From assembly GCF_000019165.1 (NCBI RefSeq), contig NC_010337.2, positions 2,924,001 through 2,988,000 on the forward strand: a DNA stretch of 64,000 nucleotides. The letters are read 5' to 3'. The notes beneath the pieces were generated by a model. That model was not told the origin of the DNA, searched no databases, and saw nothing but the letters and a program-made list of their open reading frames with translations. This DNA is from Heliomicrobium modesticaldum Ice1. GTDB lineage: Bacteria > Bacillota > Desulfitobacteriia > Heliobacteriales > Heliobacteriaceae. Both the position numbers and the translations under genes were made by a program. This document shows, piece by piece, positions 31,136 through 42,637 of this stretch (position 1 is the first letter of the stretch; every line of letters starts with the position of its first letter).

Positions 31136-31171
31136 GTAATGGAAGCTTGGTCATCGTTATTGCCAGGCCTG

Positions 31172-34100
31172 CTATACAGTGATCTTCAGCAAAAAGTCGT
31201 CATAATTCTTCGCTTGCTTAAACTGAACATCTTGGGCAACGGCTTTGAAGTGAAGTTTGCCGCACTTGATCTTTGTTTTTTCCACTTCATTCAGATCCTT
31301 ATCCTCTTTGTCTATCTTCGTTTCCACGATAAAGAAGAGCCTGGCTTGATCATCCTCTCCTTTACGGATCACAGCCCAGTCAGGAGAATATTCGCCATAG
31401 GGGGTATCAATGACGAAGCCTCCCTTTTTGATCTTGGTATATAGCAGCACTTTTTCGTCTTCTTCGAGTCTTTTGGCGAATTGGAGTTCACCATCGCTGT
31501 CGAACTTGTAATACTTATGGACGGCTCTGCCTTTATCTGCGCTCGTTTGAAAGACGAGCGATGCGACGTCTTCAAGCATGCCCATGTCGATCGAATCGGC
31601 TTCGAATATGGTCGACTCGTCAAAGACATAGCCGTCAATGGCTTCATAGCGGACAACGCCTTTGGCCATGAATTCGGTTCGTTTTTCCTTGATCTTTTGC
31701 GTCACTACATCGAGGATGTCTTGATTCTTTAGGAGGGTTGCCTTCTCCAGCTTCGATATGATCCTATAAATGGCCAGACGGGGCAGCAGGGTGTGGTACA
31801 TGATATAGTTGATGATCTCGAATTGGCTTTTTTGCAAATCCAGCCCTTCCGGTTCACTGAAAAAGGTCTGTTGCACCGACTCAGAGAGGCGGAACTTTTT
31901 CTGTTCGTCAAACTCTGCCTTGCCTGTTTCAATATTGTATTCGTAGAGGACCCGCTTAAACCGCAGGAGTTCGTTCAGTTCTCTCGCCGATTCTTCGATG
32001 AAGGCATCACTATCGATGTTAACTTGATAGAGGGTCCGTTGGGACATGCGCTTGCCCAGTTCCTTGAGCAGTTGTTCAAATTGCTCTTCTGATATATAAC
32101 TGTGGGCGCCATTCTCGATGGGTTCTTCGTCGCCGTTTTTAATGAGAATCTTCTTGCTGCCTTTTGCCTGCATCGCTTCAATAAACGCTTTCTTGATCAT
32201 GATGCTGTGCTCTTGCAGCGTTTCATGGATAAAGGTGATGGCTTCAATTTTCTTGGCGTCTTTGGTCAGCATGCCCTCTTTGTTGATGATGTTCTGTTCG
32301 ATCAGTTCTTTTCGAAGGGGTTCCGTCAGGTCGATGATCTTGTTTTCCGGAATGCCGGCATTCCGGAGTGAGGCATGAATCACATCGATGGTGACTTCTT
32401 CCTTATTGAAGCCGGCCTGTTCATTAAAATCTTTTTGGAGTGCTGCGGCAAACTGGTCATAGTAATCATTGGCGATGACGGTCAATTCATTAATCGTCTT
32501 GTCTGTGCATCGGGTGCCTTCAATATCTACGGAGAGGCGCAATCCTCTGCCGATCTCTTGTTTTTTTGCAATATCGGAGCCGCCTTTTTTCAAGGTGCAG
32601 AGGGTAAAGACATTCGGGTTATCCCAGCCTTCCCGCAACGCCGAGTGGGAGAAGATGAACGCCAAGGGTTCCTCAAAGGATATGAGCTCGTCTTTCTTCT
32701 CTAGGATCAGTTCAATGCCCCGGTCGATATCTTCTTGAGACTTGGCTTTCAGCTTATCTTCATCCATCACCTTGTCCCAATCTTCAATCTCTACGGCATT
32801 TTTGTGCTTATCGACGGCAAAATAGCCTTCTCTCACCTTGTGTACATTTTTATAATCTTTAAACAGCTCCGGGTATTCGACAAAAAGCTGCTTCCCCTTT
32901 TTATCCGTGATGATCTTGCTATACTCTTCGTCAAAAATGCGCAGGTACTCCCCTCGGCCATCAGGGGAGCTGGTGTCTCGATACTTGTTGACGGCGTCTA
33001 TGAAGAACAAGGTGAGGACTTTGATTTTTCTTCCGCTCTTCAAGATCTTGTATTGCTTCTCCAGGTGACTCTTAATGGCCAGCCTGATCTGGATTCGGAT
33101 CGTTTCTTCTTCACTGATGTCGGCATTGTTTTCTCCGACGGCAAGCTCCAGGATATCGTCCCACTTGCTGATCTTCAGCTTTTTTAGCTTGTGCGGATCT
33201 TCCATGACGAACATGTTTTTGTATTGATCCAGGTTCCCAGAACATTCAAAAAGAGAATCGCCGCCTCGAACTTTGACCTGCTTCTTGCGAATCTGCCCGC
33301 CCTGCTCCACACAGAACAGTTCGATCTTGGCAAAGAGGTCTTTTGTGAACTCTACGTAACGAACGTATGGGAAGTCTTTCGGTATGGCGCCGTGGACGGT
33401 TTTTACCTGGATCTTCTTGACCAGATCCTTTTGATAGGCATCGAAGGAGTCGAGCTTGTAGACCTGGTTGTACCGGCTTTTATGGGTGGCTGAATAACGC
33501 AGGACAAACAAAGGATCGATCCCCTCGATGGCTTCCAGAGAGGCGCTCTTCTTCTTCGCTGTGCCCTCGATTTTTTGCGGTTCGTCGATGATGACGATGG
33601 GGTGAATATACCGGATGTCTTCCCATAGGATCTGGCCATATTCGTCGGATTGACGGATTTTGTTGGAATCTTTATTGAAGGCCTGGATGTTCATGACCAC
33701 GATGCTGAGGTCTCTCGTCTCCACAAAACTGCTGCTGATCTTTTTCAAGTTCTTGGAGTCGTAGACGAAGGCATGGTTCATTATGTCCAGGCCGTCGTAG
33801 ATGCCTTTGAAGTGTTCCCGCAACATGGCCATGGTTTTCTCTACGCCTTTTCGAATGGCAATGGTCGGTACAACGATCATGAACTTCGTAAAGCCATAAG
33901 CGCGGTATAATTCGAGAATGGTCCGCAGGTACACGTAGGTCTTGCCTGTGCCTGTTTCCATCTCGATGGTAAAGTTGTTCCCTTTCAGTTCATGATCGGT
34001 GAACAGCTTGTTCTTTTGCTGCACCTCGCGAAGGTTGTGCAGGAGCCTTGCCGGTGAAACCAGTTGCGGGTTGCGCACAGGATCGCCTTCGACGAGTTTC

Positions 34101-34240
34101 TTCATTCTCTGTAGTTGGCGATAGATAGTTCCGTCATCGTGGCGGCTAACGCCTTTAAAGAGGTTGACGACAGAGTTGACGGCATCTTTCTGATAGCCCA
34201 ACTTGTCATCAAATTGAAAGGCAATACGGTTGGTCATCAT
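31172..34240 (-). CDS. res: Type III restriction enzyme, Res subunit
   Basis: The ATP-dependent restriction subunit of a type III system, 1022 aa. A superfamily 2 helicase core shows METGTGKT (94-101), IIDEPQKI (about 217-224, the DExx box), LRYSATHK (motif III) and EIGRGLRLSVD (motif VI). The C-terminal PD-(D/E)xK nuclease is visible as YSPDWAVI...FFIVETK near 960-985. It needs Mod, which gives the sequence specificity, to translocate and cleave. It is the last gene of a four-gene operon and starts 8 nt after mod, behind GGGGTG. All signature residues are present, so it should be active. Confidence 0.93.
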   Translation of the reverse strand: MMTNRIAFQFDDKLGYQKDAVNSVVNLFKGVSRHDDGTIYRQLQRMKKLVEGDPVRNPQLVSPARLLHNLREVQQKNKLFTDHELKGNNFTIEMETGTGKTYVYLRTILELYRAYGFTKFMIVVPTIAIRKGVEKTMAMLREHFKGIYDGLDIMNHAFVYDSKNLKKISSSFVETRDLSIVVMNIQAFNKDSNKIRQSDEYGQILWEDIRYIHPIVIIDEPQKIEGTAKKKSASLEAIEGIDPLFVLRYSATHKSRYNQVYKLDSFDAYQKDLVKKIQVKTVHGAIPKDFPYVRYVEFTKDLFAKIELFCVEQGGQIRKKQVKVRGGDSLFECSGNLDQYKNMFVMEDPHKLKKLKISKWDDILELAVGENNADISEEETIRIQIRLAIKSHLEKQYKILKSGRKIKVLTLFFIDAVNKYRDTSSPDGRGEYLRIFDEEYSKIITDKKGKQLFVEYPELFKDYKNVHKVREGYFAVDKHKNAVEIEDWDKVMDEDKLKAKSQEDIDRGIELILEKKDELISFEEPLAFIFSHSALREGWDNPNVFTLCTLKKGGSDIAKKQEIGRGLRLSVDIEGTRCTDKTINELTVIANDYYDQFAAALQKDFNEQAGFNKEEVTIDVIHASLRNAGIPENKIIDLTEPLRKELIEQNIINKEGMLTKDAKKIEAITFIHETLQEHSIMIKKAFIEAMQAKGSKKILIKNGDEEPIENGAHSYISEEQFEQLLKELGKRMSQRTLYQVNIDSDAFIEESARELNELLRFKRVLYEYNIETGKAEFDEQKKFRLSESVQQTFFSEPEGLDLQKSQFEIINYIMYHTLLPRLAIYRIISKLEKATLLKNQDILDVVTQKIKEKRTEFMAKGVVRYEAIDGYVFDESTIFEADSIDMGMLEDVASLVFQTSADKGRAVHKYYKFDSDGELQFAKRLEEDEKVLLYTKIKKGGFVIDTPYGEYSPDWAVIRKGEDDQARLFFIVETKIDKEDKDLNEVEKTKIKCGKLHFKAVAQDVQFKQAKNYDDFLLKITV

Positions 34241-34248
34241 GGCACCCC

Positions 34249-36162
34249 TTATATGAACTCGACGCGATAGGCTTTCTTCTTCAGGCCGCTGTTTTTCTTC
34301 ATCTGCGCTTCCAATCGGAGCATGCTGTTCGTTTTCAAGCTGATGTCGGCGCCGAAGGCGCTGTCACGGAAGATGATCTTGGTGGGCATGGGCTCGATGG
34401 CGGCGATTTTATCAATCATGCTTTCCGTTACGTTTTCTTCCAAGCAAACGAGAACGGTGTCGGCGAAGATATAGGTTCTCTCTCCAATAGAAGCTACTTT
34501 CTCCACCTTGGACGATAAGGGGATATCCCGGTGACGGAGCAGGATCTCATAGACCACATCGAGATCGGTAAAGCCGGGGGTGAAGTCCAACCTGTCTTTA
34601 TCGGTCATGGCGCTTTCATCAAGTGTCATTTGATCGGATTTCATCGCTTCACTGAACCAACGGATATTGGTGTCGGCCACTTTGAAGACCTTGAAGCCGA
34701 TGTCGAGGTTTTCGATGCCCTTCTTGTCTTTGTTTTCTTCGATGATCTTGTCTCCGGCTCTGCGGATGCGTTCTTTGCCGATTTCGCAGATGTTCTTTAA
34801 CTTAACGGCATTTCCATAATCTCCACTCTCACAAACTTCAGGTAATTGAACCATAATAAACTTTCTTTTACCCCCATCTTCAGCATTTAGCTGCATAACA
34901 GCATCCGCTGATGTTGCTGAACCTGAAAAAAAATCCAAAACAATAGCATTATTATCCGAAGCTATTGTTAGTATATATTTCAATAATAACGTTGGCTTTG
35001 GAGTGCTAAATAAACTTGTTACAGGTACTTCTGGAAACAACTTTTTTAATTCATATTTCGCTCTTCTTGTGTGCCCAGTTATCTCCAAATCAATACACAA
35101 GCTTGAAGGCGGTAACCCTTTCATTTCATATAAATAAGTCCTTCTTATAAGGCGTGTTTCATCTTCAGAGAAGCGCAGTTCACCTGTCTTTAATTTTTCT
35201 TCAATAGTTTCTTTGGACCATCTCCATCCGTTTGGTGGATGTTTAATAAGTTTCCCACTTGGCGTTATTATATCAAATTGGAGATTTGGTCTTAATCCTG
35301 GATTATTTACGGGATTTCCATCAAACCATGGACCTCGAGGATCATTATCTGGGTTTTTAAAGTGTTGCCTTTTGCTATCATTATTAAGGAAATTAGGTTT
35401 CCAATCCGGACTTTTTGCGTATACCAAAATATAATTATGATCCTCCGAAAACGTCAACGCATTATTGTTACTATTGTCACTTGATCGCCAAACAATGTCT
35501 CCAATAAAGCTATTAGAACCAAATACCTCGTCACATAATAATTTTAAGTTTGAGTGTTCATTATCATCAATGCTAATAAAGATCACACCATCTTCTTTTA
35601 GCAAATCCTTGGCAACTTTCAACCGAGGATACATCATCGACAACCAGTTGGAATGATACCGCCCGTTACTCTTTTGATTAACAATCAGACGCTCTCCCAT
35701 TTCATCTATCTCGCCTTCCAATGCACTGTTTTCACGCTGATTCATCGCAAAGTTGTCTTTGTAGATAAAATCATTGCCCGTGTTGTACGGAGGATCAATG
35801 TAAATCATCTTCACCTTATTGTAATAACTGTTCCGGAGTAGCTTCAAAACCTCTAAGTTGTCCCCTTCAATATACAGGTTCTCTGTCGTTTCAGGGTGTT
35901 TGCTTTCCTCTGGCACATATTTCAAGGTTCGGCCGACCACGTCCTGGTTGGCAAGCTTCTTCGCTTCTTCCTTGCCAACCCAACCGAGTTCATAGCGCTC
36001 CGACATTTTTTCGCTGACCGATTCAAATTGTCCCAGCTCCGCTTTCAAGGCTTCCAAGTCCACTTGCCCGTCTTTCACGGCAGCAGGAAAGAGTTGGGCC
36101 AGCTTTTTTACATTTTCAGCGATCGGATTGAATATTTCCTTTTGAACTTTTGAGAACTCCAT
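34249..36162 (-). CDS. mod: Type III DNA methyltransferase, Mod subunit, with mosaic centre
   Basis: A 637-aa adenine N6 methyltransferase of beta-class order: DPPYNTGNDF (motif IV, 123-132) before the target recognition region and FFSGSAT (motif I, 411-417). Together with Res it recognises an asymmetric site. Residues about 168-457 are encoded by clearly AT-rich DNA (about 34790-35660), whereas both ends match the GC level of the operon. This suggests exchange of the recognition region by recombination. Start follows GGGAGGAAG. It is 11 nt from the DUF4391 gene. The frame is intact and both catalytic motifs are present. Confidence 0.93.
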   Translation of the reverse strand: MEFSKVQKEIFNPIAENVKKLAQLFPAAVKDGQVDLEALKAELGQFESVSEKMSERYELGWVGKEEAKKLANQDVVGRTLKYVPEESKHPETTENLYIEGDNLEVLKLLRNSYYNKVKMIYIDPPYNTGNDFIYKDNFAMNQRENSALEGEIDEMGERLIVNQKSNGRYHSNWLSMMYPRLKVAKDLLKEDGVIFISIDDNEHSNLKLLCDEVFGSNSFIGDIVWRSSDNSNNNALTFSEDHNYILVYAKSPDWKPNFLNNDSKRQHFKNPDNDPRGPWFDGNPVNNPGLRPNLQFDIITPSGKLIKHPPNGWRWSKETIEEKLKTGELRFSEDETRLIRRTYLYEMKGLPPSSLCIDLEITGHTRRAKYELKKLFPEVPVTSLFSTPKPTLLLKYILTIASDNNAIVLDFFSGSATSADAVMQLNAEDGGKRKFIMVQLPEVCESGDYGNAVKLKNICEIGKERIRRAGDKIIEENKDKKGIENLDIGFKVFKVADTNIRWFSEAMKSDQMTLDESAMTDKDRLDFTPGFTDLDVVYEILLRHRDIPLSSKVEKVASIGERTYIFADTVLVCLEENVTESMIDKIAAIEPMPTKIIFRDSAFGADISLKTNSMLRLEAQMKKNSGLKKKAYRVEFI

Positions 36163-36173
36163 GTTCTTCCTCC

Positions 36174-36902
36174 CTAAGTAGTTTCGATTATGTCGTTCAA
36201 TCGGGCATATAGGCGTTTTAGCTCTCCGTTGATCTGCGCCTGCTCGGCGACGGTCCTGGCGGATTTCAGTTCATTTTTCTTCTGTTGCGTTTCCTTGAGA
36301 CAACGGTAGAGGTGCAATGTCTTCTCCCGGTTATACCATGCCTTTGAATGCAGGAGCCCCTTCATGCCTGACCACAGGGACAGGTTAGAAATGATAAAGG
36401 CCTTGCCCATCATTTCCAGGTAATAGTCCAGTTTGTTGCCCCTGTTGCCGATTTTGTCAAAAAAGATGTGCTCTTCCATCAACCTGCTGACCTCGTCGGC
36501 GAAGCGCATCGACGTGGCAGCGGAGCATAGCATATCTTCGAGGACGATCTGGGTCCTGTCTTGTCGATTCAGCCTTTTGTGGGCAAAGCAAAAGAGCTGG
36601 TGTTGGCTGTGGTCATAGAACCGGATGACACAGAGGGGTTTGACGAGACGCTGAAAAAGCGTTCCGGTAAAGGGGGCATGCTTCAAGTCACTCAGGCGGA
36701 CCGTGAAAAAGAGGATCGCCTGGCAGTCATATTCGTCATCGATCAGGGACGGGATCGCTTCTCCGGCGATCTGGTAGGATAGCCGCACCTCTTGTACGTT
36801 CTCTTTGAGTCGCTTTTTCTCTGCCGGTGTGACATCGGATGTCAGGAAGGTTTTCAAGGCAAAGGTTTTCTCGATCCGATAGGCGTCGGGAATGGCCAGC
36901 AT
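36174..36902 (-). CDS. DUF4391 family protein of the extended type III system
   Basis: A 242-aa protein that matches the DUF4391 layout: an alpha/beta N-terminal domain (about 1-170) with ICRFYDH-like FYDHSQHQLFCFAHKRL and a predicted coiled-coil C-terminus with EVSRLMEEH and a Lys/Glu-rich end (about 205-242). DUF4391 genes occur next to SNF2-like helicases and mod/res genes in many bacteria; the biochemical role is not known. Start at ATG after AGAGGTG. It sits 10 nt after the helicase and 11 nt before mod, so it is part of one transcript. It might bridge the helicase to the methyltransferase, which is speculation. Confidence 0.8.
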   Translation of the reverse strand: MLAIPDAYRIEKTFALKTFLTSDVTPAEKKRLKENVQEVRLSYQIAGEAIPSLIDDEYDCQAILFFTVRLSDLKHAPFTGTLFQRLVKPLCVIRFYDHSQHQLFCFAHKRLNRQDRTQIVLEDMLCSAATSMRFADEVSRLMEEHIFFDKIGNRGNKLDYYLEMMGKAFIISNLSLWSGMKGLLHSKAWYNREKTLHLYRCLKETQQKKNELKSARTVAEQAQINGELKRLYARLNDIIETT

Positions 36903-36912
36903 GGCTTCACCT

Positions 36913-39900
36913 CTATTCGACGACCAGAAAAGAGATCAACTCAAAATCGTCGCTAGTTGTATTGGCAAATTCGTTGTTATAGCCGCCGAAGTCAAAGATG
37001 GTTGCCTCTGCCTTTCTCTCTTCATCGCCCTGTATGGCCGCTATGGCTTGATTGAGCAGGTGGGAATAGACGGACATATCTTCGGCATTCTTGGTGCGCT
37101 TGTTAAAGGCTTTGAACAAGGCGGGATCAGGCTTGTCTCTGCCAACAGCCATTTTCCGGAAGGCTTTCAAGGCTTCACGGGCATTGTGGTTGCCATAGTA
37201 AACCTGGCCGTCTTTGCTGATGTAAATGACATAATAGGGATAGATGGAACTGTCTGTGGCGGGTTTCGCCTTATCCTTCTGGTATCGGAAACAGAAAAGG
37301 CAACCCTGCTTTTCGCCATCCACTATGGAATAGACCCCAGGGGGGACGCGATTGATCTCAGGATGGTTCTGGACATATCCCGATAATTCGTACAGGTAAT
37401 CGTTCATGTTCAAGTCGGTCAGGGATAGGTTGTCATTCAGTTCGTCTATCTCAATCACTTCTTCTTGCAAGCGCTCCAACTGTCTTTTCCGGAAGATGAA
37501 GTCGTTCATTTCAGGGGAGAGGAAGTCTTCATCGCCTGTCGATGACAGGTTTACGGCCATCATTTTTCCTTTGACTCTCTGTTCGAGTTGGAGATATTCG
37601 TTCAGTTCCAGGTTCGGGAAGAAGTTGATCATGGCGATCTGTTTGTTCTGGCTGCCGATGCGATCGATCCGGCCAAAGCGCTGAATGAGAACGACGGGAT
37701 TCCATTGGATGTCGTAGTTGATCACGGTGTCACAGTCTTGCAGGTTCTGTCCTTCTGAAATGCAGTCGGTAGCGATGACCACATCGATCTGCTCCTGTTT
37801 CGGCAACGTTTGCCCCAGTTTTGACAGGGGAGAAAAGTGGCGCAGGATCGTGTTGAATTCGGAACGGATCTGCTTCATCGTTGTCCGTGGTTCGCCTGAG
37901 CCTGTAATGGAAGCTACGTTGATTTGATGCTTGGAGAGTTCTGGGGCGATGTGGCGGTAGAGATAGTTGGCTGTATCGGCAAAGGCCGTGAAGATGAGGA
38001 TTTTTCGGTTTCCCTGGTTATAGGGCGTATGGATGATTTTATCGACAATGACCTCTTCCAGCTTTTTTAGCTTGGCGTCCCTTTTTTCGTTCAACAGTTG
38101 TTGAGCCTTGCTGTACAAGCCTTCTAAGATGTTTTTGTCGTAGTACAGGTCTTCGAGAAAATCGGCCGCGATCAGATGCTCCACTTTGATCTCATATTTG
38201 TAGTTCAAGACGACATCTTCTTCGCTGTAGTCTTCGCCTTCCAGTTGCACGTCCCCCGATTGACTGCGGCTGATCGCATCGATGTAATCGTTTATTCTCG
38301 CGAGCAGTCTCCGGATCGTCTCGGAAAAGGCAAAGACGGAGCTTTCCAGCCGTTTGAAGAGGTTAAACCGGTGCAGCCGAGCGTTGATCAGTTCGCGGCT
38401 TTCATGGTAGAACAAAACCCTGTCGCCGTGAACGGTCTGATATTTTTTTCGGTAATACTCTTTATATTCTGATTTGATGTAGGTCATGGGCGCATAGACA
38501 GCCAGTTTTAGAGATTCTAACACTTCATTGGTCTCTTGAAAGGATAACAGGCGATTTTGTGTGTCGATTTCTGGATAATAGGTCTTTGGCGGAAGTTTTT
38601 CCGGAAATTTTCCTATGTTTTGATTGCCGTAATAGGCTGTGATGTGCCGGCGGCTGCGGGAGATGGTCAGCATTTCAAGAAGCTTAAAGAAGTCGCCCGG
38701 CAGCCGATCGAGGAGGGCGTTCTTCGTCCGCTCATCGTCTTTCATCCAGTCATTGATTTCCTTCTGGGCTTTGCGAAGCAGGTTGGATAGGCTGCTGATG
38801 CCGGCTTCCTCAAAGGCATGGTCTTGGTCTGCCGTGATGATGTTGATCTGGTTTTTTAGATCAACCAATGAGTTGTTCACGGGGGTTGCCGATAAGAGCA
38901 GCACTTTTGTGCCACGCCCTCGTTTGATGATGTCATTGAGCAGTTTCATGTAGCGGCTCTGGTGTTCGGGGTCCTCGTTACGATTGCGGAAGTTATGGGA
39001 TTCGTCGATGACAACCAGATCGAAGTTGCTCCAGTTGATCCTAGCCAAGTCGATGCCGCTTTTCGAGTAGCCTTTGGTGCGTGTTAGATCGGTATGACAG
39101 AGGATTTTGTAGTTAAAGTTGTCTTTGACAAAAGCGTTATCGACATAAGGGTTTTTGAAGGAGTCCCAGTTGTCATAGAGTTTGGCCGGACACAAGACGA
39201 GCACATTGTCTTCCCTGAGTTCAAAATACTTGATCACTGCGAGGGCCTCAAAGGTTTTGCCTAAGCCTACGCTGTCTGCGATAATGCAGCCGTTGTATTT
39301 GTTGATCTTTTGAATGGCCGAGACGACGGCGTCTTTTTGGAATTCGTAGAGGCTGTTCCAGATGATCGTCTTCTTGAATCCGCTTTTGTCCTTTTCAAAG
39401 CGGTCAATGCCGCTGTCAAGGTACTCTCCAAAGATCTCTTTCAAGGTGAAGTAGTAGAGGAATTCCGGGGAGTAGTCTTTGTATACGTAGTTTAGGCTTT
39501 CAAGCAACTGTTCTTTGTAATCTTCCGTATAGGCCGGGTTGTTCCATACGATCTGAAACATTCGTTGGAACTTTTCTATCTCGGTCTTAGACAGGACCAT
39601 CGAGTTGAAATGAATAGGCGCAACGTCGCCTCGCTTCGTCTTCTTGGCGAGTTCCAGGGAGGATGTGCCGTGGATGGCCACTTCATCATCGATCATGATG
39701 ATGTTGCCGGTTATCTTGTCCGGTTCTTTGGTCTTGTGGACGTTTACATGCTTTTGGATAAAGGTGTACATCGACTTGGCTTTGGCAAAATGCTGGAGCT
39801 TGTTTTTCTGGATGATGTCATAGGCATTAAAGAACAGTTCCCGATCGCGGTGTTGGATTTCAAACTCGCGAGGCACTTCGTTGCTGCCGGGGATGTTTTG

Positions 39901-40077
39901 GGTATTGCGGATAATCAAGTTGATGGTGTCAACGTTACTCAGATTCTTCGAGAGTTCGCTAAAGACGGATAAGGTGAGTTTGTCGTTGATGATATTTATC
40001 TTTCTGCCTTTTTTCGCCTTCAATAATCCATTGATCGTCTCTATCAGTTGGTCGTTGGAAGTGATCACTTCGTTCAC
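36913..40077 (-). CDS. SNF2-family helicase with PLD-like N-terminal region, extended type III system
   Basis: A 1054-aa protein. Residues about 50-185 look like a phospholipase-D-type domain (IIMIDDEVAIHGTSSLEL near 128-145), but the catalytic HxK pattern is degenerate. The SNF2/Rad54-type ATPase follows: DSVGLGKTFEAL (about 268), VIDESHNFRNR (about 357), LLSATPVNNS, and C-terminal motifs CISEGQNLQDCD and QRFGRIDRIGS. The GTG start of VNEVITSND is chosen because GGAGG is 8 nt upstream. First gene of the four-gene operon. It is not part of canonical type III systems, so it probably adds a translocating or remodelling step to defence. Function is inferred from domains and context. Confidence 0.82.
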   Translation of the reverse strand: MNEVITSNDQLIETINGLLKAKKGRKINIINDKLTLSVFSELSKNLSNVDTINLIIRNTQNIPGSNEVPREFEIQHRDRELFFNAYDIIQKNKLQHFAKAKSMYTFIQKHVNVHKTKEPDKITGNIIMIDDEVAIHGTSSLELAKKTKRGDVAPIHFNSMVLSKTEIEKFQRMFQIVWNNPAYTEDYKEQLLESLNYVYKDYSPEFLYYFTLKEIFGEYLDSGIDRFEKDKSGFKKTIIWNSLYEFQKDAVVSAIQKINKYNGCIIADSVGLGKTFEALAVIKYFELREDNVLVLCPAKLYDNWDSFKNPYVDNAFVKDNFNYKILCHTDLTRTKGYSKSGIDLARINWSNFDLVVIDESHNFRNRNEDPEHQSRYMKLLNDIIKRGRGTKVLLLSATPVNNSLVDLKNQINIITADQDHAFEEAGISSLSNLLRKAQKEINDWMKDDERTKNALLDRLPGDFFKLLEMLTISRSRRHITAYYGNQNIGKFPEKLPPKTYYPEIDTQNRLLSFQETNEVLESLKLAVYAPMTYIKSEYKEYYRKKYQTVHGDRVLFYHESRELINARLHRFNLFKRLESSVFAFSETIRRLLARINDYIDAISRSQSGDVQLEGEDYSEEDVVLNYKYEIKVEHLIAADFLEDLYYDKNILEGLYSKAQQLLNEKRDAKLKKLEEVIVDKIIHTPYNQGNRKILIFTAFADTANYLYRHIAPELSKHQINVASITGSGEPRTTMKQIRSEFNTILRHFSPLSKLGQTLPKQEQIDVVIATDCISEGQNLQDCDTVINYDIQWNPVVLIQRFGRIDRIGSQNKQIAMINFFPNLELNEYLQLEQRVKGKMMAVNLSSTGDEDFLSPEMNDFIFRKRQLERLQEEVIEIDELNDNLSLTDLNMNDYLYELSGYVQNHPEINRVPPGVYSIVDGEKQGCLFCFRYQKDKAKPATDSSIYPYYVIYISKDGQVYYGNHNAREALKAFRKMAVGRDKPDPALFKAFNKRTKNAEDMSVYSHLLNQAIAAIQGDEERKAEATIFDFGGYNNEFANTTSDDFELISFLVVE

Positions 40078-40138
40078 CCTGCCAGCCTCCAAGTTTAACA
40101 ACTGTTATATAACGCGTCGCATCAGGAACCTTTTTTCT

Positions 40139-40147
40139 ATTATAGCA
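40139..40147 (-). promoter_or_regulatory. Extended -10 promoter of the restriction operon
   Basis: TGCTATAAT on the minus strand, an extended -10 element about 60 bp before the helicase start. No good -35 was seen. It lies only about 55 bp from the IS1380-like element. Confidence 0.6.
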
Positions 40148-40202
40148 GGTCTTTTATTGATTGGCTCTCATTGGTAATATACTGCAATAGTGTTTAGAAT
40201 TC

Positions 40203-41267
40203 CCTGAATCCGTGACAGGATAAGAAGTAAACAGTCGAAATTCAGCGCATTTCCCCGTATAATAGAGATAAACGAGTTTAATCGGAGTGATTTGAACTCA
40301 CCGACGGGGTGAATGCATAACCATGAAGAAGTTCATTATCGAGCAATCGAATGAGGAGCTTACACCGGTAACTGGATTGGCGCTCGTGGGCGCCTTGTTA
40401 AGAAAGACTTCATTGAAATTGCGATTGGATAAGTCCACTGTGCCCACTTGTTTGACACCAGATATAAGCCACGGAACTGTTGCTCTGAGCTACCTGGGCC
40501 TTCTCTGTCAGGGAAAGAATGACTTCGATGCGATTGAGCTGGCTCGTGGAGATGACTTTTTTCGATACGCCGATACGCCATGGGCGTCGACATCGTACCC
40601 TCCAGTCCCACGTTACGACAACGATTTGAAAAGGTTGTTGAGACGGATTTGAAATGGAACGACATCATTATGGAAGAATCTGCTCGTCTCATCAAAAAAG
40701 CAAAAGCTCCCTTGACACCTGTTCGGGTCGGCGCTACGGACTATCTGACGGTAGACGTAGATGTGATCGTTGATCAAATGAGCTTACGCCGTCTGGATTC
40801 TCCTCTAAAGAGAAAGGCCCATACGCAGCGCCGCCGGATACTCACGGTACTTCAAAATGTGATCACCATTGCGTCTCGATTGGTGAGACATGCCAGACAA
40901 GTGAAGCTCCGGCTCGGGGCGCATAGTCCCTGGTACGCAACGTTTAAGGATCTCTATCTTGCTTTTTCGTAAACGGCAAGGATTTCCTAAAAAATCAAAT
41001 TCATTCGATGGGATAGACCTTTAGATGTAAAATGTGTCAAAGGTTAGCTTTGTACGCTTCTATGGATCTCGTTTCTTGACGGCACCACCTTCTTTGATAA
41101 GGCGACGTGTTCAAATGGCTATCTAATGAAATTGGATTAAATTCTTGTAACACGAATTACTTTTTGTGGAAAATCATTGGGGTACTGCTAAGTCGACTCA
41201 CGGATTCAGGACGGGGGAAATGCGCTGAATTTCGACTGTTTACTTCTTATCCTGTCACGGATTCAGG
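40203..41267 (+). mobile_element. Deleted IS1380-family element with perfect 54-bp inverted repeats
   Basis: The 1065-bp element is bounded by perfect inverted repeats of 54 bp (40203-40256 and 41214-41267), starting CCTGAATCCGTGACAGGATA. It carries a broken transposase with an internal deletion. A further partial copy of the terminal CACGGATTCAGG lies at 41199-41210. No clear target-site duplication was visible. It can move only if a complete relative supplies transposase. Confidence 0.85.
40323..40972 (+). pseudogene. IS1380-family transposase, frameshifted and internally deleted
   Basis: Two frames make up the remnant. The first (from 40323) reads as the N-terminus of an IS1380 transposase (LTPVTGLALVGALL). 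An 8-bp tandem duplication of CGATACGC (40563-40578) shifts the frame. The second frame continues MGVDIVPSSPTLRQRFE and ends as the C-terminal segment (LVRHARQVKLRLG). The catalytic core between VDVIVDQ and MSLRRLDS is missing, which leaves about half the normal length. Confidence 0.82.
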
Positions 41268-41296
41268 TTTCTAGTATGTGGGTTTACTCGCAAAAT

Positions 41297-41339
41297 CCGC
41301 CGTTCATCCCCGTGGTTAAAACCAGGGGCTTTCCGGCGG
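41297..41339. mobile_element. IS200/IS605-like end hairpin (solo)
   Basis: A nested palindrome, with CCGCCG and CGGCGG as outer arms and CCCCGTGGTT/AACCAGGGG as an inner stem with one mismatch. It resembles the subterminal hairpins of IS200/IS605-family elements and PATE-type derivatives. No tnpA or tnpB is nearby. Confidence 0.5.
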
Positions 41340-41449
41340 ACGATGGTAAAATGAGGTGTAGGCGTGAGATAAAAGTATGTCCTTTATAGCTCGCTTTTGG
41401 GATATAATGTTAGCTGTAAGTGGTGGATGAGCACAAGGAAGGTGATTCG

Positions 41450-41815
41450 ATGATGATTTTGGATAGCCAAAAGACGTTGGAAAGCCTTGCGCTATCAGGC
41501 AATCAACGCAAAGCCCTTCAAGAATTTAAAGAAAGGTTAGAGAAAACTATTCCATTACGATACCTTGTGCTATTTGGTTCAGTCGCTCGTCAAACTGCTG
41601 GGGAGGATTCGGACGTAGATATCCTGGTTGTAGCAGATAAGGAACTGTCTGATTCCGAATGCAGACTTATTTCGGATATCGTCTTTGAAACAAATCTAAA
41701 GTACGATACAACGCTGAGCTTCGTCCCAGTGGAAATCAATCAATGGGAACGAAGGAGTCCTTTTATAGCAAATCTGTATAAAGAAGTCAGAAGGGACGGG
41801 GTGATAATCGAGTGA
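41450..41815 (+). CDS. MNT-type nucleotidyltransferase antitoxin, now without its HEPN partner
   Basis: A 121-aa minimal nucleotidyltransferase. The signature is LVLFGSVARQ with SDVDILVV 11 residues later, giving the GS and DxD active-site residues. Members pair with HEPN-domain RNase toxins and inactivate them, in some cases by AMPylating a tyrosine. The ATG is chosen for GGAAGG about 8 nt upstream. A GTG that overlaps its stop (GTGA) begins VSLTEQES, the expected beginning of a HEPN gene, but a group II intron end follows after eight codons. The antitoxin thus appears orphaned. A TATAAT lies at 41403-41408. Confidence 0.85.
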   Translation: MMILDSQKTLESLALSGNQRKALQEFKERLEKTIPLRYLVLFGSVARQTAGEDSDVDILVVADKELSDSECRLISDIVFETNLKYDTTLSFVPVEINQWERRSPFIANLYKEVRRDGVIIE

Positions 41816-41836
41816 GTTTAACGGAACAAGAATCGA
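41812..41836 (+). pseudogene. 5' stub of a HEPN toxin gene
   Basis: Starts with GTG in a 4-nt overlap with the MNT stop and reads VSLTEQES, like the N-terminus of small HEPN proteins, then runs into the 3' end of the group II intron. The remainder of the gene is not found on the other side of the intron. The identification rests on position and eight residues only. Confidence 0.4.
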
Positions 41837-42596
41837 GTAGGAGGGGGTGATTAACCCCTGTCCTCTCACACCACCGTACGTACCGTTCGGTATACGGCGG
41901 TTCATGCTGGTTGACGATGAGATTGGTATGTTTCGACTAAACTGACTAAGCCCTGTTCCCGCCAGTAGGCGAGGCCAAGGGCTTTATTCATTTGCGGGGT
42001 CAAGGACAGACGCCAATATCCTTTTCGTGAGCCGCTGATGTTGCATGCCCATTCCTCCGGAATGCCCAACGCCACTAGGTTTCGTCTTCGTGTCTTCGGG
42101 CGCTTCCATTGCTTGAGCAGGCACATCCGCAGTCGTCGGCGAAGCCACTCATCCAGCTCTTTTAGCACGCTTGGCGTATCAATGAGTCGAAAGTAGCCCA
42201 TCCAGCCTTTCAGGTATTGGTTGAGGGTGTCCAGTCGGTCCTCCATCGCGATGCTTCGACTCCGCCCAGTGATTGACGCGATCAAAGAACTGGGCCAGGT
42301 CCATGTCAACCACCCATCGGTAGCCGTCGGCGATGTATTCCTTCGCTTTCTTCACCGCTTGGTGCGCACTCTTTCCCGGACGAAATCCGTAGCTGTTCGT
42401 GGAAAAGTCAGGGTCGAAGATCGGCATCAGGATCTGGTTCAGGGCCTGTTGGATCAGTCGAGCGACGACAAAGGTTTGCCGCTGGCTTCCTTCAGATTCC
42501 GCCTCGCGACGGACACCCTTGCCTTAAGCTAACGCCTACTGCCACCTTCGGCGTTCGGGACTTCCACCCTAGAGACAACGCCCATGCCGGGCGCAC
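41837..42596 (-). mobile_element. Group IIC intron, multiply deleted
   Basis: On the minus strand the element starts GTGCGCCCGGCATGGG (42596 onward), a typical 5' end. It continues with the domain I segment containing GGTGGAAGTCCCGAACGCC and ends with domains V (41902-41871) and VI and the terminal CCTAC at 41837. The intron-encoded protein is truncated. At 760 nt it has lost well over half of the usual length of about 1.9 kb. It lies two bases after the T-run of an intrinsic terminator, the preferred target of class C introns. Confidence 0.85.
41902..42490 (-). pseudogene. Remnant of group II intron reverse transcriptase/maturase
   Basis: Fragments of the intron-encoded protein in two frames. 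One has the reverse-transcriptase motif segment STNSYGFRPGKSAHQAV and DMDLAQFFDRVNH; the YADD catalytic block after it is deleted. The other, from about 42250, has the maturase/thumb C-terminus (LNQYLKGWMGYFRL, NISGSRKGYWRLS). The N-terminal fingers are missing. It cannot be active. Confidence 0.85.
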
Positions 42597-42598
42597 TG

Positions 42599-42629
42599 AA
42601 AAAACGCCCCGGATATGCTCCGGAGCGTT
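42599..42629 (-). terminator. Rho-independent terminator used as intron target
   Basis: AACGCTCCGGA-GCATA-TCCGGGGCGTT forms an 11-bp stem with one G-U pair, followed by TTTTTT on the minus strand. It ends the small HTH gene, and the intron begins 2 nt after the T-run. Confidence 0.88.
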
Positions 42630-42637
42630 CAAAAAAG

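Follow-up and report, generated by a model that had tools for sequence, protein, structure and literature searches.

A four-gene type III restriction operon in Heliomicrobium modesticaldum with a conserved SNF2-family helicase and DUF4391 protein as possible additional subunits

Classical type III restriction enzymes are ATP-dependent and slide, and their cleavage requires two unmodified sites in inverse orientation (PMC12707154). Among the known effectors of BREX-related and CxC/Pbe systems are HKD-SF2 helicases (PMC12839542, PMC10853773), and Type-2 BREX-related (BR) systems combine a SNF2 helicase bearing an N-terminal HKD domain with an adenine methylase and DUF3780, a small alpha+beta protein that stands alone (PMC12839542). 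The present study concerns an operon in a stretch of 64,000 nucleotides of the Heliomicrobium modesticaldum Ice1 genome (NC_010337.2, positions 2,924,001 to 2,988,000; hereafter the window), in which a SNF2-family helicase and a DUF4391 protein accompany the methylase (Mod) and the nuclease subunit (Res) of a type III restriction-modification (RM) system. Annotation labels this operon 'type III RM' and assigns the helicase and DUF4391 no role. Our analysis reveals that exactly this set of four genes is conserved across phyla and on many plasmids; thus, the four probably constitute one machine rather than a two-gene enzyme with passengers.

All four genes lie co-directionally on the minus strand. 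The preliminary description, made from the letters of the window without database searches, had proposed a four-gene type III operon, and its open reading frames (ORFs) were recovered at the positions given there, with each family matched by Pfam or PADLOC. The helicase (36913..40077) matches the Pfam families SNF2-rel_dom and Helicase_C, and its best PADLOC match is C3a139, 'HKD+Snf2' (E 9e-264). It is followed by the DUF4391 protein (36174..36902; PF14335, E 9e-56), the proposed adaptor, for which no PADLOC model gives a match. Next stand Mod, a DNA methyltransferase (34249..36162; Pfam N6_N4_Mtase; PADLOC MTase_III, E 4e-196), and Res, a helicase with a C-terminal PD-(D/E)XK nuclease (31172..34240; Pfam ResIII and RE_endonuc; PADLOC REase_III, E 4e-200). 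The intergenic gaps are 10 nt between helicase and DUF4391, 11 nt between DUF4391 and Mod, and 8 nt between Mod and Res. The helicase ORF, 36913-40101, was confirmed as such, but the TTG at 40101 is a less likely start than the GTG at 40077 (1054 amino acids), because GGAGG lies just upstream of the latter and because the latter agrees with the shorter N-terminus of a relative that is 83% identical (L086).

Mod and Res have sequence features of a type III system. In the window's Mod, DPPY (residues 123-126) precedes FSGS (412-415), i.e., the FxGxx motif, which is the order of a beta-type methylase; DPPY is conserved in 95/95 and the FSGS position in 91-95/95 of the proteins. Mod is homologous to the solved type III Mod 6k0w and to the EcoP15I Mod (4zcf), and its family suggests methylation of adenine-N6. 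Res, an SF2 helicase with a C-terminal nuclease, carries PD at residues 953-954 and ETK at 973-975 and is homologous to the EcoP15I Res (4zcf_C, E 3e-55); its Walker A/B motifs, the arginine motif GRGLR, and PD..ExK are each retained in 94-95/95. The likeness to EcoP15I and EcoP1I thus covers homologous subunits, the placing of mod before res, shared methylase motifs, and a PD-(D/E)XK nuclease at the C-terminus of Res. In contrast to EcoP15I, the window system has two extra conserved subunits, and the EcoP15I-like Res proteins (L293 and L295) lie outside, on a long branch, in the Res tree. A plain type III system comprises Mod and Res only. Since the operon retains its helicase and DUF4391 genes across phyla, we file it as a type III variant and not as a plain member. 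In this respect, the earlier proposal of an extended four-gene type III system holds, whereas its suggestion of a distinct defence type went too far for a variant that has the Mod and Res of type III at its core.

The conservation of the set was assessed in 398 Bacillota genomes, which were searched with the DUF4391 family and with the helicase model, the DUF4391 search being the unbiased test; loci outside Bacillota were picked by similarity to the helicase alignment and not by DUF4391. DUF4391 was found in 33/398 and the helicase model in 32/398 genomes. The two were adjacent in 27 genomes, against about 3 expected to hold both by chance, and the remaining six DUF4391 genomes present contig ends or decayed copies. 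Where an intact Bacillota helicase had room downstream (at least 4 kb after it), DUF4391, Mod, and Res were all present, at 24/24 loci. A wider genome scan with the helicase alignment gave 80 loci, and all three partners were found at 57 of the 62 with room; all four families occur together in 61 loci spanning 14 named phyla. A partly broken copy was seen in the archaeon Methanobrevibacter curvatus (L173). Among contigs of a viral collection, many of which are probably prophages or host DNA, the full set stands at 45 of the 54 loci with room. According to the preliminary description, a helicase and a DUF4391 protein occurring mostly apart from mod and res would speak against a system; the opposite was found, as they are nearly always together.

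Furthermore, the gene order is constant, and the helicase and DUF4391 genes share 4 nt at 50/132 junctions. Pairwise protein distances across 95 complete loci correlate with r values of 0.76-0.92 (0.87 for helicase and DUF4391) against a permutation maximum of 0.13. Common host ancestry is left in place by such a permutation, but in the Res tree members of different phyla intermingle. Because this Res family is carried by 52/398 Bacillota genomes and DUF4391 by 33/398, the family seems usually to take the four-gene form.

What the two additional proteins might do is suggested by their domains. The AlphaFold2 (AF2) model of the helicase (predicted local distance difference test, pLDDT, 81.5) matches INO80/ISWI motors over residues about 228-903, with a Z of about 20, and Walker A/B and motif VI are conserved in 100/100 helicase sequences. 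Chromatin remodellers are double-strand DNA translocases. Pfam PLDc_2 and RE_NgoFVII match two helicase relatives, L065 and L260, and the reading of the N-terminus as a PLD (HKD) domain rests on these matches. At the position of the HxK motif, the window helicase reads GNIIMIDD, accompanied by GTSSLE; HxK itself is not present. The motif is absent from 94/95 helicases of four-gene loci, the window's included, L065 being the sole exception, a pattern which suggests that their ancestral PLD nuclease is dead. The caution with which the PLD reading was first offered was justified, as the domain is PLD-like and has lost HxK in nearly all systems.

Other arrangements and matches were seen around this helicase family. 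At one locus (L249 5858-12114), DUF4391 and Mod are missing between helicase and Res, and these two genes overlap by 1 nt. At another (L035 1501-5301, genome G253), PADLOC C3a139 gives 581 bits to a protein without detectable similarity to the helicase family, so that the model or the match looks faulty. The C3a139 matches in G253, G261, and G381 were considered as partnerless helicases and left out of the counts, given this lack of similarity in the G253 protein and the lack of any match to the helicase family among the long ORFs at the corresponding places in G261 and G381.

The AF2 model of DUF4391 (pLDDT 96.4) comprises an alpha/beta head and a C-terminal pair of long helices. Foldseek gave no convincing fold match for the whole model (lowest E values, 0.19 for PDB and 0.05 for BFVD), and a further structural comparison gave Z values up to 7.3, mainly over the helical part. 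Since no residue is invariant among 100 members, DUF4391 is unlikely to be an enzyme, which fits a scaffold.

A more specific role is suggested by four helicase relatives (L254, L259, L260, and L264) that retain HxK and have no separate DUF4391, Mod, or Res genes. A large gene follows their helicase, directly or one gene on, and all four large proteins align; Pfam assigns the product to the Eco57I-type methylases for L260 and L254, and PADLOC calls it type IIG-like for L264. The N-terminal region of these methylases is DUF4391-like. In two of the proteins, Pfam gives E 9e-5, below the curated cut-off, and profile-profile comparison with DUF4391 gives a probability of 96% and E 4e-9, with a shared RLN..D stretch. 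When a domain occurs as its own protein in one system and as part of a methylase in another, this usually points to an interaction. Therefore, the DUF4391-like domain of the Eco57I-type methylases suggests that DUF4391 docks the translocase on the methylase. An SMC/ABC-type ATPase is also encoded in L254, L260, and L264, and none was seen in L259. The HKD-SNF2 helicase, the DUF4391-Eco57I methylase, and the SMC/ABC ATPase possibly form an unnamed defence system; no name was found for this arrangement. It resembles the window operon in the helicase family and the DUF4391-like domain and differs from it in its intact HxK, in a type IIG-like methylase that replaces Mod, and in having no Res.

Taken together, we give about even odds to a four-subunit variant of type III enzymes, in which a motor and a DUF4391 adaptor are added to the Mod/Res core. 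Judging from family membership and intact motifs, Mod would recognise and methylate a short site, and Res would carry the cutting nuclease. The helicase would be a SNF2-type double-strand DNA translocase with a dead ancestral PLD nuclease, and DUF4391 a non-enzymatic adaptor docking this motor onto the methylase. When Mod or Mod-Res meets an unmodified site, the motor might be recruited through DUF4391 and translocate along the DNA, thereby delivering or activating Res for cleavage. The outcome, with this presumed order of events, would be a type I-like motor step on a type III core. By analogy with type I enzymes, a true motor could relax the need for two inverted sites. It is a good deal more doubtful, and rather unlikely, that the module makes a one-way, motor-driven type I/type III hybrid able to cut DNA with all its sites in one orientation, something beyond classical type III enzymes, with DUF4391 as a general adaptor plugging SNF2 motors into unrelated methylases.

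Several observations weigh against the four-subunit reading. The helicase of L065, a four-gene locus, retains HxK, and a dead PLD is therefore not absolute. The docking of the motor depends on a domain match below the Pfam cut-off in four proteins from viral contigs. In addition, some two-gene Mod-Res loci fall inside the four-gene clade of the Res tree, and thus the motor module can be lost. The rooting of that tree rests on the long branch of an EcoP15I-like pair (L293 and L295), which lies outside. The two-gene loci within the clade are scattered tips, as loss would predict, and this topology, with the EcoP15I-like systems outside, speaks for the four-subunit reading. Several of these tips end at contig edges where partners possibly went unseen; beside L065 in the tree, L297 has only a 90-amino-acid helicase remnant. 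Loss of the motor module appears to be the simpler reading of these loci. Genuine two-gene loci are L285, L286, and L296; their Res lacks the nuclease region, and they may be decayed or altered. A type III Res of about 760-810 amino acids without a PD-(D/E)XK nuclease region was observed at L285, L286, L292, and L296.

Alternatively, the helicase and DUF4391 could be an independent defence module that stands beside a self-sufficient two-gene type III system. Defence genes often cluster, some Mod-Res pairs stand without the module, and for EcoP15I the two subunits Mod and Res suffice (PMC12707154). However, helicase-DUF4391 pairs without nearby Mod/Res are rare where enough sequence is present. 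The constant order and the many 4-nt overlaps also argue against independence, as does the tighter covariation of helicase-Res distances (r = 0.92) than of Mod-Res distances (0.84), and we regard this explanation as improbable. We attach a similarly low likelihood to a role of the module in modification or safety, whereby the motor would clear DNA for Mod or restrain Res on host DNA until methylation is complete. Such a role would suit the fusion of DUF4391 to a methylase in the relatives and the place of the helicase and DUF4391 ahead of mod and res in the operon; however, the relatives' helicase has its own nuclease motif, which points to a restriction subunit, and there are loci that have Mod and Res without the other two. 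Finally, that the PLD domain is itself an active nuclease in a dual-nuclease system, as the PLDc_2 and RE_NgoFVII matches and the HxK of L065 might suggest, is very hard to reconcile with the loss of the motif in all the other four-gene helicases, including that of the window.

Two further described systems invite comparison. DISARM likewise has a SNF2 motor beside a methylase, and DrmD models are the next-best helicase match after C3a139 (NCBIfam, E 6e-48). In contrast, the window operon has no DrmA, DrmB (DUF1998), or DrmC, and the DrmD score is 164 bits against a cut-off of 610 bits. DrmMI, which was sought for a comparison of its N-terminal domain, gave no match in 249 genomes. The Type-2 BREX-related systems share with the operon an HKD-SNF2 helicase, a methylase, and a small stand-alone DUF protein. 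Unlike them, the window has neither the DUF499 ATPase nor DUF3780 among the four operon genes (Pfam), its HKD is apparently dead, and a separate Res would do the cutting. DUF3780 is also not among the 25 Pfam families listed for 100 DUF4391 proteins.

The four-gene set is not described in the main texts of the open-access papers searched; in the same papers DUF4391 appears only in one unrelated table row, and PF14335 does not appear. Thus, although helicases of this type are familiar, novelty as far as could be found lies in the four-gene type III arrangement, in the dead HKD, and in an adaptor role of DUF4391. Should all four genes prove necessary, only half of the components have been considered in many predicted type III systems, and the lack of the other two may leave cloned mod-res pairs inactive. 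DUF4391 also gains a testable role, and the site-orientation rule of type III enzymes becomes testable.

The set also occurs on plasmids. Of 102 plasmid records with the helicase, 69 are mobilizable or conjugative. In nine plasmid regions that were read, the order helicase, small gene, methylase, Res held in 9/9, and the small gene was annotated as DUF4391 in 7/9 (as chemotaxis protein or hypothetical in the other two). Carriers include conjugative plasmids of Shewanella, Paraburkholderia, Raoultella, and Enterococcus, a mobilizable Listeria plasmid, and a plasmid of E. coli that has phage-like replication genes. In E. coli plasmid pLAO18, the four-gene operon occupies L394 3154-12215. On an Acinetobacter gerneri plasmid (L389 3235-8847), a Tn7-like TnsA, a Mu-type transposase, TniB, and TniQ lie immediately upstream of the set. 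Some loci have SIR2-HerA, a GajA-like OLD ATPase, schlafen AlbA_2, RhuM, or BRO embedded between DUF4391, Mod, and Res; the window operon has none of these. The embedded defence-type genes, the plasmids, and the insert described below form the context in which a role of the four-gene set in phage defence is presumed. In some plasmid copies, regulator genes stand directly upstream of the helicase, with a WYL domain in L395 (8108-9013) and a helix-turn-helix in L393 (1921-2121); no such regulator was seen upstream of the helicase in the window.

The operon lies in a genomic segment (31137..42636) that is missing from the sister species G400. At the corresponding locus there (L404), only 10 nt separate the homologues of window positions 31136 and 42637. 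The GC content is about 46% within 31137-42636 and about 58% outside. Because of this empty site and the lower GC, we read the 11.5 kb as an insert in the window's lineage; a clean loss in G400 is less likely. Another sister species, G303, also has neither the helicase nor DUF4391. The mobile-element remnants and the broken HEPN-MNT module noted earlier beside the operon were borne out. An internally deleted insertion sequence (IS) remnant at 40203..41267, not part of the system, has perfect 54-bp terminal inverted repeats (I1, 54 nt, 100%; 40203-40256 and 41214-41267), between which a transposase fragment gives a weak DDE_Tnp_1_4 match. An MNT nucleotidyltransferase whose HEPN partner is missing (41420..41815, plus strand; NTP_transf_2, E 3e-10) is likewise a neighbour outside the system. 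The frame overlapping its 3′ end stops after about 9 codons and gives way to a group II intron (maturase) fragment. Seen from the empty site, the operon, the IS remnant, the MNT gene, and the intron fragment together make up one 11.5-kb unit.

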